From the NCBI GenBank assembly GCA_018057825.1, contig JAGPCY010000012.1:62001-126000 (forward strand): a DNA stretch of 64,000 bases. Reading direction: 5' to 3'. A model generated the notes under the pieces. It was not told where the DNA came from. It searched no databases and was given only the letters and a program-made list of their open reading frames with translations. Origin of the DNA: Kofleriaceae bacterium. Lineage in GTDB: Bacteria; Myxococcota_A; Polyangia; Haliangiales; Haliangiaceae. Every line of letters begins with the position of its first letter. Position 1 is the stretch's first letter. Position numbers and translations under genes: made by a program. Shown here one piece after another: positions 20,105-29,989 of the stretch.

Positions 20105-20281
20105 ATGTCCGCGCCGCGCGCCTCGGCCGCCGCGATCGCGATCGCCCTGGCGGTGGTGATCGGCTTCGCGACCCCGGTGCGCGGCCTGTGGGCCCGCGAC
20201 CTGGGGCCGTGGTGGTTGCCGTTCGTCGCCTGGTTGCCGGCGGTCGTGGCCCTGGCCTGGACCGCGCGAGCGCCCCGCTGA
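20105..20281 (+). CDS. Small two-helix membrane protein preceding the symporter-kinase
   Basis: The protein has 58 residues from ATG 20105: one hydrophobic segment at about 8-25 and another at about 37-52 (WWLPFVAWLPAVVALAW). Its stop overlaps the ATG of the next gene by one base (TGATG), implying translational coupling. Small membrane ORFs coupled to SLC5-type sensor kinases are known (cbrX before cbrA in Pseudomonas); homology to these is not shown. A DUF3311-like fold is another guess. It may be a subunit or chaperone of the kinase. Confidence 0.65.
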   Translation: MSAPRASAAAIAIALAVVIGFATPVRGLWARDLGPWWLPFVAWLPAVVALAWTARAPR

Positions 20282-23163
20282 TGCTGTCGCCGACGACGCT
20301 GGTGGTCTTGACCGTCGGCTACCTCGCGGCCCTGGTGGCGATCGCGCGCGCCGGCGATCGCGTCGACGCGGCGCGGGCGCTGTCGCGGCGCCCGCTGGTG
20401 GCGGCCCTCGCGCTCGGGGTCTACGCGACGTCGTGGAGCTACTTCGGCTCGGTCGGGTTCGCCGACCGCGAGGGCTGGCGCTACCTGGCGATCTACGTCG
20501 GCGTCACCGCCTCGTGCGCGTTGACCCCGCTGGTGTGGGCGCCGCTCCATCGCCTGGTGCGCGAGCGTCAGCTCGGCTCGCTGGCCGACCTGCTGGCGTT
20601 TCGCTACCAGCGCCGCGCGGTCGGGGCCGCGGTGACCGGCTTCCTCCTGCTCGGCAGCCTGCCGTACCAGGCCTTGCAGCTCCGCGCGCTGGTGGCCTCG
20701 GTCGAGCAGCTCGGCGGCGGCGCCGGCTCCGTCGAGCTGGGCGCGCTCCTGTCGGCGGGCCTGGTGGTGGTCGCGGTGGTGGCCGGTGCGCGCCATCCGA
20801 CCTCGCGCGATCGCCACGACGGGCTGGTCCTGGCGGTGGCCTTCGAGTCGGTGGTGAAGCTGGTCGCGCTCGTCGCGATCACGCTGTGGGCGCTCTACGA
20901 GGTGTTCGGCGGACTGGGCGGTCTCGACCGCTGGCTGGCCGCCCACCCCGACGAGCTGGCGGCGATGGCCACCCCGGCCCGCGACGGCGACTGGGTGACG
21001 CTCCTGGCGCTGTCGGCCGGCGCGGCGTTCCTGTTGCCGCGGCAGTGGCACCTGGCCTTCACCGAGAGCGCCGGCCCGACGGCGCTGCGCACGACGAGCT
21101 GGGCGCTGCCCGCGTACCTCGTCGTGCTCACGCTCGCGGTGCCGCCGATCCTGTGGGCCGGGCGCGCGCTCGGCCTCGGCGGCGATGCCGACTTCTACGT
21201 CCTCGGGCTGGCCCGGGCCTCGGGCTCACCGGTCCTGGCCGCGGTGGTGTTCCTCGGCGCGCTGGCCGCCGCCACCGCGATGATCGTCGTCACCACCGTC
21301 GCCCTGGCGGCGATGGCCCAGAACCACCTCGGCCGGCCGGCCACGGCCTGGGCGATGCGCGGCGATCCCTATCGCCGGCTGCGCTGGCTGCGCCGTGCCC
21401 TGATCGCCGCGATCATCCTGGCCGGCCACGCGGTCTACCTCGGGTTGCGTCAGCGCGCCGAGCTCGCCGACCTCGGCCTGGTGTCGTTCGTCGCGGTGGC
21501 CCAGCTCGTGCCCGGTCTGATCGGCGTGCTGTGGTGGCCGCGGGCCAGCGCCGGCGGCGCCCTCGCCGGGCTGGCGGTCGGCGGCGCCGCGTGGGCGGCG
21601 CTCCTGCTCGCGCCGCTGTTCGGCGGCGACCCCGGCGTCCTGCCGGCCCTGGGCGTCGACGGTGATCCCTGGCCGGCCACCGCCGCGCTGACGCTGGGCC
21701 CCAACCTCCTGGCGTTCGTGCTCGGGTCGCTGGCCTGGCCGCCGACGCCGGCCGAGATCGACGCCGCCGCGACCTGCGCGCGCCGCCCCCGCGCCGCCAG
21801 CGTCGACGACGCCGCGGTCGCCGCCGGCTCGCCCGACGAGCTGGCCGCCCGTCTGGCCGGCGTGCTCGGCGCCGCCACCGCCGCGCGTGAGGTCGACCGC
21901 GCGCTCGCCGATCTCGCCCTCGACCGCGGTGAGCGTCGGCCGCGCGAGCTGCGCGCGCTGCGCGATCGCGTCGAGCACAACCTGTCCGGCCTGCTCGGCC
22001 CGCTGCCGGCGCGGGCCGCGGTCGACGACGCCCTGCCGCTCGATCCCGATCACGCGCTGGTGTCGGCGCAGCTCCGCTTCGTCGCCGAACACCGCGCCGC
22101 GGCCGAGGCGCCGGCCCGCGAGCTCGACGCCGCGCGCCGCTACCTGCGCCGGGTCCTCGACGATCTGCCGGTCGGGGTCGCCACGGTGGGCCCGGCCGGC
22201 GAGGTCGTGCTGTGGAACCCGGCGATGACCGCGATCACCGGCCTGGCCGCCGCCGCGACCACCGGCCTGCCGATCGCGGCGTTGCCGGCGCCGTGGGGCG
22301 CGGTCCTGGCCGCGTTCGCCGCCGGCGCCCCGACGCGCGCCGAGGTCACCCTGCCGGCGCTGCGGCCACGCACGATCGCGCTCGGACGCTCGGACCTCGG
22401 CCCGGGGGCCCTGGCCGGCGGCAGCGCCGGCGGCGTCGTGCTCCTGGTCGAGGATCTCACCGACGAGCGGGCCCTGGCCGCCCAGGTCGCGCACCAGGAG
22501 CGCCTGGCCTCGATCGGCCGGCTGGCCGCCGGCGTCGCGCACGAGGTCGGCAACCCGCTGACCGGGGTCAAGCTCACCGCGGCCAACCTGCGCCGCGAGC
22601 TCACCGACCCCGACGTCCGGGCCCGCCTCGATCTGATCCTCGGCGCCGGCGACCGCATCGACCGCATCGTCCGGGCCCTGGTCGGCTACGCCCACGCCGG
22701 CGACGCCGCCCGCGGCCCGCGCGGTCCGGTGGCGCTGGCGCCGCTAGTCGCGGACGCCGTCACGCTGACCCGCCTGAGCAAAGCCGGCAAGCAGCTCGAG
22801 CTGCGCGCCGAGGTGCCACCGACCCTCGCGGTCACCGGCGATCGCCCGCAGCTCGAGCAGGTGATCGTCAACCTCCTGGCCAACGCCGGCGACGCGTCGT
22901 CGCTCGGTGGCGAGGTGACCGTGACCGCCCGCGCGGCCGGCGACCAGGTGATCATCGAGGTGATCGATCGCGGCGCCGGCATGACGCCCGAGGTCGCGGC
23001 CCGCGCCCTGGACCCGTTCTTCACCACCAAGCCGCCCGGCGAGGGCACCGGGCTGGGCCTGGCGCTGGTGTACAGTATCGTCGTGGATCACGGCGGGACC
23101 CTCACGCTCGACAGCGTCCCTGGCGCCGGCACGACCGTGCGCGTGACGCTGCCCAGTCCATGA
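20281..23163 (+). CDS. Sodium/solute symporter (SLC5)-histidine kinase fusion, CbrA/CrbS-like
   Basis: The 960-residue protein starts with ATG overlapping the preceding stop. Residues about 1-490 are a 12-13 TM symporter of the SSS/SLC5 family ([59 protein letters not shown]). A PAS-like domain follows at about 625-700 ([19 protein letters not shown]). The kinase core has the H-box [17 protein letters not shown] (His about 753), an N-box [13 protein letters not shown] and G-boxes ([17 protein letters not shown]). Such fusions sense or transport a carbon source and signal to a response regulator, here the sigma54 activator 13 bp downstream. Acetate is the likely cue, given the following acs-actP genes. 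Confidence 0.95.
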
Positions 23164-23176
23164 GCGGGCCCGCGCC

Positions 23177-24517
<1,341 letters not shown>

Positions 24518-24565: not shown

Positions 24566-24898
<333 letters not shown>

Positions 24899-24907
24899 CT
24901 CCCCACC

Positions 24908-24922
24908 GTTACCTTCGGTAAC
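24908..24922. promoter_or_regulatory. Operator-like palindrome 1, candidate enhancer site
   Basis: GTTACC-TTC-GGTAAC is a perfect 6-bp inverted repeat. Its centre is about 95 bp upstream of the GG of the sigma54-like promoter at 25009. It begins 32 bp before the second, related palindrome, which puts both on nearly the same helix face. Confidence 0.55.
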
Positions 24923-24939
24923 AGCCGCGCGGCCGCCGC

Positions 24940-24954
24940 GTTACCGACGGTGAC
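24940..24954. promoter_or_regulatory. Operator-like palindrome 2, candidate enhancer site
   Basis: GTTACC-GAC-GGTGAC is the same palindrome with one mismatch, 32 bp downstream of the first. The pair suits two dimers of the NtrC-like activator encoded just upstream. A further half-site-like GTTACGCCG follows at 24962. Confidence 0.5.
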
Positions 24955-25008
24955 AGCCGCGGTTACGCCGCGGCGCGGCTTGTGCGCGCAAGTCCATGGG
25001 CCGGGGCC

Positions 25009-25024
25009 TGGCCCACGCCTTGCG
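25009..25024 (+). promoter_or_regulatory. Candidate sigma54 (-24/-12) promoter of the porin-acs-actP operon
   Basis: TGGCCCACGCCTTGCG has GG and GC exactly 10 bases apart and matches about 9 of 12 informative positions of TGGCACG-N4-TTGCW. Transcription would begin near 25034, only two to three bases before the ATG at 25037, implying a leaderless message. No ribosome site is obvious there, which is compatible. A chance match in high-G+C DNA cannot be excluded. Confidence 0.45.
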
Positions 25025-25036
25025 GTAGCGGTGGGC

Positions 25037-26158
25037 ATGCAACCGCACGCCCTGGGGAGGGGCCCGGCTCGCGCCGCCGCCGGCGCCCTGGCCCTCATCG
25101 CCGTCGCCGCGCCGGCCCACGCCGAGAAGCTCCTCGGCCGCGACGAGACCACGATCCACCTGGGCCTCTTGCTCCAGCCGCAGGCGGTGGTCGCCCAGGG
25201 CGGCGCCCCCGACGGCGGTCCCGGCACCGACTTCTTCCTGCGCCGCGCCCGCGTGATGCTCTACGGCGACCTCACCGAGCGCGTCGGGTTCTTCCTCGAG
25301 ACCGAGCAGTTGAACCTCGGCAAGGACGGGAACTGGGACACCGCCGCGTACCTCCAGGACGCCTACCTGTCGCTGCGGGTGTCGCCGAGCGCGGCGCCGG
25401 CGGTGTTCATCGACGCCGGGATGATGCTGGTGCCGTTCACGCGCCACGCGCTGCAGTCGGCGATCAGCCTGAACGGCCTCGACTACCACACCAAGCTGGT
25501 CCTTTACCCCAACCAGTCGACCCGGGTGTGGCGCGACGTCGGCGTCGGCGCCCGCGCCGACCTCGGGAGGGTCCAGCTCCGGGCCGGCGTCTACAACGGC
25601 GTCGAGGGCGTCACCGGCGCCGACCCGACGATGGCCCGAAACGCCGACGATCTGCCGCGCCTGGCCGGCCACGCGCGGGTGTCGCTCCTCGGCCGCGACC
25701 GCGGCGTCTTCTACCCCGGGCTCCTGTTCACCGCGACGCCGGTGGTGTCGGTCGGCGTCGGCGTCGACTGGCAGCGCGGCGCGATCGCCGCCATGGCCGG
25801 TCCGGACGATCACCTGGCCCTGGCCGCCGACGCCTACGCCCACCTGCCGACCGGCGCCGACCAGGCGATCGTCGCCCAGGCCACCGTGGTCCGCTACGAC
25901 GACGGCGCCGCCGCCCCCTCGACCGGCTACGGCGGCTTCCTCGAGGCTGGCTTCCGGGTCGGCCGGTTCGAGCCGGTCGTGGCCTACGAGCACTTCGCCG
26001 CCGACGTGCCGGCCGGCGACCTGCGCGCGATCCACCTGGGCGGCGCATGGTTCGTCGATCAGCACCGCACCAACCTGAAGCTCGACCTCACCCGGGCCCG
26101 CACCGGCACCGCAGCCAACACCTGGTCGGCTACCGTGCAGGCCCAGCTCTCGCTCTGA
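25037..26158 (+). CDS. Outer-membrane porin, phosphate-selective (OprO/OprP)-type family
   Basis: The protein has 373 residues from ATG 25037, which opens directly on a signal peptide (ALALIAVAAPAHA-EK). An open extension to 24950 would spoil the signal. Motifs of the OprP-like porins are visible: FFLRRARVMLYGDLTERVGFFLETEQ, LQDAYLSLRV, FIDAGMMLVPFTRHALQS, then regular amphipathic strands to the C-terminus. It ends in Leu (QAQLSL), not the more usual Phe. First gene before acs, so it probably admits small carboxylates; phosphate is less likely from context. Confidence 0.85.
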   Translation: MQPHALGRGPARAAAGALALIAVAAPAHAEKLLGRDETTIHLGLLLQPQAVVAQGGAPDGGPGTDFFLRRARVMLYGDLTERVGFFLETEQLNLGKDGNWDTAAYLQDAYLSLRVSPSAAPAVFIDAGMMLVPFTRHALQSAISLNGLDYHTKLVLYPNQSTRVWRDVGVGARADLGRVQLRAGVYNGVEGVTGADPTMARNADDLPRLAGHARVSLLGRDRGVFYPGLLFTATPVVSVGVGVDWQRGAIAAMAGPDDHLALAADAYAHLPTGADQAIVAQATVVRYDDGAAAPSTGYGGFLEAGFRVGRFEPVVAYEHFAADVPAGDLRAIHLGGAWFVDQHRTNLKLDLTRARTGTAANTWSATVQAQLSL

Positions 26159-26181: not shown

Positions 26182-28091
<1,910 letters not shown>

Positions 28092-28095
<4 letters not shown>

Positions 28096-28412
28096 CCGCC
28101 GACCAGCTCGCGCCGTCCGCGCCGAGCGCGACCGCGGCCCACGCCGAGATGGCCGCGGTGTCGGCCCGCCGCAACCGCATCGCCGCGGTCCTGACCACGA
28201 TCATGGGCCTGGGCTACTTCGGCTTCATCCTCCTGGTCGCGTTCGCCAAGCCGACCGCGGGGCACCTCCTGGCCGGCGGCCGGGTCAGCGTCGGCATCGT
28301 CCTCGGCGCGGTCGTGATCGTCCTGGCCCCGGCGCTGACCGCGATCTACGTGCGGTGGGCCAACCGCCACTACGACGGCGCGGTCCGCCGCCTGCGCGGA
28401 GGTCGGTCGTGA
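28092..28412 (+). CDS. Small membrane protein in the YjcH/DUF485 position between acs and actP
   Basis: The protein has 106 residues from GTG 28092, overlapping the acs stop. Two hydrophobic helices (about 33-54, LTTIMGLGYFGFILLVAFA, and about 66-88) are followed by YVRWANRHYDGAVRRL. The topology and the position between acs and actP are those of DUF485 proteins such as YjcH, which accompany the acetate permease. Sequence identity to YjcH is not obvious by eye, so the call rests mainly on context. Confidence 0.75.
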
Positions 28413-29989
28413 CCGGCGGCGGCGCCGCGGCCGCGCCGGCCGCTAGCTCGTCGACGCTCGGCAGCCCGAGCGCCAGCGCGATCGGCTTCTTCTTCTTGTT
28501 CGTCGCGATCACCCTCGGCATCACCTACTGGGCGGCGCGCCGGACCCGCTCGACCCGCGAGTACTTCGCGGCCGGCGGCGATCTCAGCGCGGCCCAGAAC
28601 GGCTTCGCCCTGGCCGGCGACTACATGAGCGCGGCCAGCTTCCTCGGCATCGCCGGGCTGGTGTCGATGTCGGGCTTCGACGGCCTGATCTACTCGGTCG
28701 GCTGGCTGGTCGGCTGGCCGGTCATCACGTTCCTCATCGCCGAGCCGCTGCGCAACCTCGGCCGCTTCACCTTCGCCGACGTCTTGGCCTATCGCCTGAG
28801 CCAGCGGCCGGTGCGCATCGCCGCCGCCAGCGGCACCTTGACCGTGGTCAGCTTCTACCTGATCGCGCAGATGGTCGGCGCCGGCGGGCTCATCCACCTC
28901 CTGTTCGGTCTGTCGTATCGGTCGGCGGTGCTGATCGTCGGCGGCGTCATGCTGCTCTACGTGCTGTTCGGCGGGATGATCGCGACCACCTGGGTGCAGA
29001 TCATCAAGGCGGTGCTCTTGCTCCTGGGCGCGACGCTCCTGGCCGGCATGGTGCTGTCGCGGTTCGGCTGGAATCCCCTCGAGCTGTTCGGCGCCGCCCG
29101 CGAGCGCTACGGCGACGCGGTCCTGGCGCCGGGCAAGCTGGTGGCCAGCCCCCTCGAGGCGATCTCGTTGGGCATCGCGCTCATGTTCGGCACCGCCGGC
29201 CTGCCCCACGTGCTGATGCGCTTCTACACCGTGCCCGACGCCGCCACCGCGCGCCGCTCGGTCGCGATCGCCACCGGGCTCATCGGCTGGTTCTACCTGG
29301 TGACCTTCGTCCTCGGCTTCGGCGCGTCGGTGCTGGTCGGCCGCGCCGCGATCGGCGGCGTCGACGCCGGCGGCAACATGGCGGCGCCGCTTCTGGCCGA
29401 GGCCCTGGGCGGCACCGGCTTCCTCGGGTTCATCTCGGCGGTCGCGTTCGCCACCATCCTGGCGGTGGTCGCCGGGCTGACCTTGTCGGGCTCGGCGGCG
29501 CTGGCCCACGACCTGTGGAATCACGTCGTGTGCAAGGGCCAGTCGCCCGAGCACGAGCAGCTCCGGGTCGCCCGCCTGGCCACCGTGGTCCTCGCCCTCC
29601 TGGCGATCGGCCTGGGCATCTTGTTCGAGGGCCAAAACGTCGCGTTCATGGTCGGCCTGGCGTTCTCGATCGCGGCCAGCGCCAACTTCCCGGCGCTCCT
29701 CTTGTCGATGACCTGGTCGCGCTTCACCACCCGCGGCGCGGTCGCCAGCATGGTCACCGGCACCGTGTCGTCGCTCGTCCTCATCCTCCTGTCGCCGACC
29801 GTGTGGGTCGGGCTCCTGCACAACGACAGCGCGATCGTGCCGCTCAAGAACCCCGGCATCATCACCGTGCCGCTGTCCTTCGCCGTCGCCGTGATCGTGT
29901 CGCTCCTGGCCCCCGAGCCCGAGGCCCGCACCGCCTTCGCCGGCGCCCAGCGCCGCATGCTCCTGGGCCCGAGCGCCGAGGAGCCCTGA
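28409..29989 (+). CDS. actP: Cation/acetate symporter ActP (SSS family)
   Basis: The protein has 526 residues from GTG 28409, overlapping the previous stop (GTGA). Family motifs are strong: AARRTRSTREYFAAGGDLSAAQNGFALAGDYMSAASFLGI, LIAEPLRNLGRFTFADVLAYRL, MFGTAGLPHVLMRFYTVPDA and LSGSAALAHDLWNH. It imports acetate with a cation, feeding the synthetase encoded upstream. Some 13 TM helices are predicted by eye. An N-terminal Gly/Ala-rich tail (TGGGAAAAPAASSS) is longer than usual and may be non-structured. Confidence 0.97.
   Translation: MTGGGAAAAPAASSSTLGSPSASAIGFFFLFVAITLGITYWAARRTRSTREYFAAGGDLSAAQNGFALAGDYMSAASFLGIAGLVSMSGFDGLIYSVGWLVGWPVITFLIAEPLRNLGRFTFADVLAYRLSQRPVRIAAASGTLTVVSFYLIAQMVGAGGLIHLLFGLSYRSAVLIVGGVMLLYVLFGGMIATTWVQIIKAVLLLLGATLLAGMVLSRFGWNPLELFGAARERYGDAVLAPGKLVASPLEAISLGIALMFGTAGLPHVLMRFYTVPDAATARRSVAIATGLIGWFYLVTFVLGFGASVLVGRAAIGGVDAGGNMAAPLLAEALGGTGFLGFISAVAFATILAVVAGLTLSGSAALAHDLWNHVVCKGQSPEHEQLRVARLATVVLALLAIGLGILFEGQNVAFMVGLAFSIAASANFPALLLSMTWSRFTTRGAVASMVTGTVSSLVLILLSPTVWVGLLHNDSAIVPLKNPGIITVPLSFAVAVIVSLLAPEPEARTAFAGAQRRMLLGPSAEEP

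Follow-up and report, generated by a model that had tools for sequence, protein, structure and literature searches.

Paired GTTAC-N5-GTAAC dyads as probable activator sites of a CbrB-like sigma54 regulator ahead of an acetate operon

Two short palindromic dyads in the window (the whole 64-kb stretch of DNA that was analysed) are very probably upstream activating sequences (UAS) of the response regulator encoded just before them, a member of the wider CbrB family, and would serve a sigma54-driven acetate operon. In the mechanism that we propose, the SLC5-type kinase would sense a carbon signal and phosphorylate the regulator. The two GTTAC-N5-GTAAC dyads share a face of the DNA, with three helical turns between them; regulator dimers would then occupy both, and the assembled AAA+ ring would contact sigma54 polymerase at the -24/-12 element. 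The activated promoter would drive porin-acs-DUF485-actP, that is, acetate uptake and activation. What we infer in this scheme is binding by the regulator, transcription of the genes as one operon, the nature of the signal and the point where transcription begins. The features are listed in Table 1.

Table 1. Features of the kinase-regulator locus and the acetate operon, in window coordinates
Feature	Position	Strand	Basis
SLC5-type (symporter-like) sensor histidine kinase, PAS-HisKA-HATPase, CbrA-like	20281..23163	+	Pfam, homology
Sigma54-dependent response regulator, CbrB-like, proposed activator	23177..24517	+	Pfam, orthologue alignment, identity
Hexanucleotide array, about 51 x CCGAGA-type units	24583..24887		TRF
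32-bp imperfect tandem duplication holding both dyads	24907..24970	+	TRF
Dyad 1, GTTACCTTCGGTAAC, proposed distal UAS	24908..24922		Sequence and orthologue conservation
Dyad 2, GTTACCGACGGTGAC, proposed proximal UAS	24940..24954		Sequence and orthologue geometry
Third GTTAC half-site, without inverted partner	24962..24966	+	Window sequence
Predicted -24/-12 element, TGGCCCACGCCTTGCG (GG-N10-GC)	25009..25024	+	Score 9 of 12; rpoN in genome
Outer-membrane porin, first gene of proposed operon	25037..26158	+	Weak Pfam Porin_O_P and NCBIfam ExtI matches
acs, acetate-CoA ligase	26182..28095	+	TIGR02188, 940 bits against a cut-off of 725
DUF485 small membrane protein (YjcH-like)	28092..28412	+	PF04341
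actP-like cation/acetate symporter	28409..29989	+	PF00474 over cut-off; NCBIfam ActP models below theirs

According to Pfam, the kinase has no receiver domain, and its divergent SLC5 part, 42-50% identical to that of Myxococcota orthologues, gave no Pfam SSF match. The regulator combines a REC domain, an AAA+ domain with an intact GAFTGA loop and a Fis-type HTH, as seen both in Pfam matches and in the alignment of orthologues. The preliminary description had stated that the gene for a sigma54 activator ends just upstream of the palindromes, which the domain content bears out: the gene ends 390 bp before the first dyad. Most of this gap is taken up by the 305-bp CCGAGA array, which separates gene from operator; in many orthologues the gap is only about 10-60 bp. 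The porin proved hardly conserved in relatives when it was used as a probe for orthologous loci, and a related porin occupies the same place in one of them (L072).

The two palindromes, GTTACC-TTC-GGTAAC and GTTACC-GAC-GGTGAC, had been placed at 24908 and 24940 with 32 bp between their starts, and these coordinates are right to the base. They had also been put some 80-125 bp upstream of the predicted start, in agreement with dyad centres at about -120 and -88 relative to the predicted +1 (25035). Measured from the T of the -24 element, the dyads start at -101 and -69, and the latter position recurs in orthologues. Both lie inside the tandem duplication (2.1 copies with 79% match by TRF; the copies are identical at 25 of 32 positions), so the second copy does not count as an independent observation within this genome. 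The third GTTAC half-site falls within a 7-bp inverted repeat, GCCGCGG...CCGCGGC (24956-24974). The duplication, the acetate operon and the link to CbrB were absent from the earlier account. We also considered the dyads as a terminator, and no terminator-like match was found at them.

The preliminary description had proposed a genome scan for the palindrome. With at most one mismatch, GTTACCNNNGGTAAC is rare, occurring at only four places in the 8.9-Mb genome (84 contigs), two of which are the window dyads; the other two (L002, L003) fall where long ORFs are listed. No further exact GTTAC-N5-GTAAC was found in the genome beyond the window locus, and thus no larger regulon was seen. Relatives that lack the kinase contain the exact dyad at a background of about 0.08 per Mb, and a single exact copy per genome is by itself unremarkable. 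The window dyads are significant because of their pairing and because both site and place are conserved in orthologous loci.

These loci were found with the kinase; a regulator probe was swamped by paralogues, about 80 of which scored in most genomes. The kinase is rare: of 377 genomes sampled from the phylum, 18 gave any match at all, and in about ten of these the match was strong. The Myxococcota kinase loci carry the regulator and mostly acs too, and their intergenic regions hold dyads of the form GTTAC/GTTTC/GCTAC-N5-GTAAC, mostly paired, ahead of acs or transporter genes, with -24/-12 elements that mostly read TGG[CT]AC. Ten kinase-bearing Myxococcota genomes contain four occurrences of the exact dyad, three of them at the orthologous locus. 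One off-locus copy (L180, in genome G400) lies just outside an ORF start; it lacks the geometry of an enhancer, and we discounted it.

Across 84,980 scanned genomes we obtained 476 kinase relatives, 80 of which were examined. They belong to Myxococcota, Gammaproteobacteria (among them Sedimenticola, Thiodiazotropha, Ectothiorhodospira and tubeworm symbionts), Azoarcus and one Nitrospira bin. Cultivable organisms with the system include Polyangium or Sorangium (L106, L125, L131, L149) and Ectothiorhodospira (L121, L126). Regions downstream of the regulator were reduced at 85% regulator identity to 45, and in 350 bp of each we counted all 16,384 dyads of the form w5-N0..15-rc(w5), without any prior motif. 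GTTAC-N5-GTAAC ranked first, occurring in 16 of the 45 regions; leaving aside variants that overlap it or are nested in it (TTACC-N3, GTAAC-N4), all remaining dyads stayed at three or fewer. Over 200 shuffles the largest count of any dyad was 4, and GTTAC-N5-GTAAC appeared in at most one region. The search is independent of the finding in the window, because the window sites lie outside the counted 350 bp. In about half of the sampled loci the 350 bp that follow the regulator lack a clear dyad; some of these loci have one ahead of the kinase or acs, and some have none. In 33 dyads carrying one mismatch or none, the inner neighbour of the left half-site tends to be C and that of the right one G, with A or G after GTAAC.

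The first genes behind the conserved promoters include acs (L122, L150, L085, L139), SSS symporters (L084, L087), a DUF4212 symporter subunit (L145, L117) and CBS-DUF294 proteins (L126, L111), targets that would fit control of the uptake and activation of acetate and other short-chain carboxylates. At seven loci (L073-L075, L077, L084, L112, L150) GTTAC-N5-GTAAC also stands upstream of the kinase gene, which suggests possible autoregulation in some lineages. In two Granulosicoccaceae loci (L081, L098) an SLC5-type kinase is accompanied by acs and by a sigma54 regulator that has diverged greatly (branch length 2.73), and no dyad was seen downstream in either.

The preliminary description had also placed the dyads on one helix face, in the classic layout of a sigma54 enhancer. 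This holds well beyond the window: dyads and -24/-12 elements are conserved together across phyla, and the dyads keep their phase relative to the promoter. In most loci the dyad starts within 2 bp of -69 or -89 from the T of the -24 element, and in the remaining ones near -79, -101, -112 or -121. At a period of 10.5 bp the phasing gave R=0.63 (n=32, near-duplicates excluded and dyads restricted to sites near a -24/-12 element), with a Rayleigh p of about 3e-6, which is approximate because the choice of dyads was limited to that vicinity and the rows are related. The phasing persisted without the two modal positions (u=2.66). The enhancer reading is further backed by the unique DNA-binding domain of the regulator, by rpoN (PF04552, 219.6 bits, over the cut-off) and by the published half-site binding of CbrB, to which we return below.

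The alternative that survives best leaves the regulator acting at the dyads, but supposes that the porin promoter is not of the sigma54 type or that transcription starts further upstream, with no leaderless transcript. We regard it as unlikely. The C of the -12 GC (25023), taken as -12, puts the predicted +1 2 nt before the porin ATG, and TGGCCCACGCCTTGC has its T at 25009; the earlier reading of a GG-N10-GC element with a predicted start 2-3 bases before the ATG was accurate as a description of the letters. Nevertheless, the element earns 9 of 12 consensus points, and because 19 sites in the 64-kb window, both strands included, score 9 or more, it is by itself weak evidence. The orthologous operons also lend the alternative some weight, as most begin with a leader of some 16-150 nt that in many cases contains a sequence like a ribosome-binding site. 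Against it, a simple consensus scan found no sigma70-like promoter in the region, the element is placed relative to the dyads as in orthologues, and the GAFTGA loop of the regulator is intact.

The suggestion that the mRNA may be leaderless is no more than plausible. The predicted 2-nt distance speaks for it, and no in-frame ATG, GTG or TTG follows the porin ATG within the signal-peptide region; if the promoter is right, the absence of a later start codon would make the porin mRNA nearly leaderless. The orthologue leaders speak against it, including that of the related porin in L072 (39 nt, with a sequence like a ribosome-binding site). A near-leaderless porin mRNA is therefore plausible in that it fits the sequence, but it is mostly unconserved, and the chance that the porin is translated without a leader appears roughly even. 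A second near-leaderless case was seen at L085:10012-10046, where the GTG of acs comes 6 nt after the predicted sigma54 start; this acs frame looks broken and the source is a metagenome bin. An RNA hairpin at the porin start turned out to be ordinary for its composition.

Some other transcription factor, such as a repressor, might instead use the dyads as its operator, their place before an acetate operon being fortuitous. Many regulators bind short palindromes. Yet in several phyla the dyad is found behind the gene for this regulator, and nothing else in the genome closely resembles the C-terminal 50 amino acids of the regulator, its DNA-binding end (next match at E=0.12), although dozens of sigma54 activators are present (81 scored matches). 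The genome thus holds one operator locus and one matching DNA-binding domain. Since the homologue CbrB has moreover been published to bind the same half-site letters (PMC6296734), we consider a different factor improbable. It is most improbable of all that the dyads are functionless, arisen by chance or as a by-product of local repeat expansion: although TRF finds the 32-bp duplication beside the hexanucleotide array and the exact dyad has the background frequency given above in relatives without the kinase, the same dyad recurs at the same distances from -24/-12 elements in orthologous loci of other phyla, and a duplication may create a second site without making it useless.

Taking the dyads as activator sites of the CbrB-like regulator, we compared the locus with known systems. 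The arrangement is like that of an NtrC-type enhancer, in which two palindromes occupy the same face of the helix some 90-120 bp before the start. However, the half-site sequence of NtrC differs from the GTTAC type, and NCBIfam NtrC-family models score the regulator far below their cut-offs. In the acetate switch CrbS/CrbR (MxtR/ErdR; Vibrio, Pseudomonas) an SLC5-type kinase controls acs and actP; in the window these two genes lie in the proposed operon downstream of the regulator. CrbS, however, is a hybrid kinase and CrbR a LuxR-type regulator with the ACTU motif (PMC5715377, PMC9100948), whereas the window regulator is a sigma54 AAA+ activator and its kinase lacks a receiver domain. With a sigma54 activator standing where the switch has a LuxR-type protein, this would be a second way of linking an SLC5-type kinase to acs and actP.

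The closest likeness is to CbrAB of Pseudomonas and Azotobacter, which has CrcZ and CrcY as targets. In both systems an SLC5-type kinase without a receiver domain adjoins a REC-AAA+-Fis-HTH regulator, both proteins being homologous over most of their length, and in both the regulator gene is followed immediately by the targets, with a -24/-12 promoter before them. The half-sites GTTAC/GTAAC are also common to both. CbrB, whose action depends on sigma54, binds sites of the forms TGTTAC (F) and GTAACA (R), which share a face of the helix and whose centres are separated by 20-25 bp, as was shown by gel shift, footprint and substitution; these subsites were called non-palindromic and variably spaced (PMC6296734). 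In the window, dyad 1 has GTTAC/GTAACA and dyad 2 GTTAC/GTGACA, and neither has a T before its GTTAC. Unlike the CbrB sites, the window operator is a compact palindrome with N5 and 10 bp between half-site centres, and its proposed target is the acetate operon rather than an sRNA: fewer than two CA motifs occur in the 700 bp downstream of the regulator, and no RF01675 (CrcZ) match was found in the genome, a weak test given that the controls gave no match either. CbrAB has been described as unique to Pseudomonadaceae, without a known orthologous system (PMC8871633). Because of that description, and of the non-palindromic sites, we read the window system, judging by its sequence, as a new branch of the CbrAB family, one with palindromic sites and a link to acetate. 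No prior description of a CbrB-family operator code beyond Pseudomonadaceae was found in the open-access literature searched.

We compared eight loci around CrcZ matches, five over the Rfam cut-off and three below. All eight (L172-L179) have an adjacent kinase 38-42% identical and a regulator 52-55% identical to those of the window. The HTH of these regulators reads TETELA-KLGISRKCLWERRQRLGIPR or nearly so, close to that of the window, and their DNA-binding helix, LGISRKCLWERRQRLGIPR, is nearly the same. All eight also have GTTAC-N14..16-GTAAC, an inverted spacing about one helical turn wider than N5. Counting exact half-sites, loci with a CrcZ-like RNA have N14-18 in 12/15 cases and N5 in 0/15, whereas those without such an RNA have N5 in 17/39 and N14-18 in 0/39. 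The linker between AAA+ domain and HTH differs as well, with a median of 53 residues in regulators with a CrcZ-like RNA against the shorter 41 in the group without (p about 1e-5, descent ignored). Loci of the Alcanivorax, Motiliproteus, Gynuella and Moraxellaceae type have GTTAC/GTAAC half-sites with CA-motif-rich sequence downstream. Nine loci (L140, L146, L148, L136, L127, L132, L141, L147, L130) show a CbrAB-like pair followed by CA-motif-rich, CrcZ-like sequence, all with GTTAC half-sites and most also with a clear -24/-12 element; the records bear the names Alcanivorax, Motiliproteus, Gynuella, Moraxellaceae and others, outside Pseudomonadaceae. With the Rfam model for CrcZ, none of the scanned loci of the Alcanivorax/Motiliproteus type reached the gathering threshold; CrcZ was found in other genomes of that order.

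In the tree, the CrcZ-bearing rows form one branch nested in the wider family (SH-aLRT 99), and the window locus falls in a Myxococcota group (97). We lean slightly towards an order of events in which the N5-palindrome acetate family is ancestral and Pseudomonas CbrAB arose inside it by acquiring the N14-16 spacing, a longer linker and a CrcZ-like sRNA. We infer that N5 came first from the nesting in the tree, several inner branches of which are weak. If so, what has been called "non-palindromic subsites" in CbrB targets would be the GTTAC-N5-GTAAC palindrome in stretched form. The evidence places CbrAB within a wider family that includes Myxococcota, sulfur-oxidising and symbiotic Gammaproteobacteria and Azoarcus. 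It suggests an origin in acetate control for the carbon-catabolite regulator of Pseudomonas, and it points to a testable operator code in which the two branches share the same letters and differ by one helical turn.
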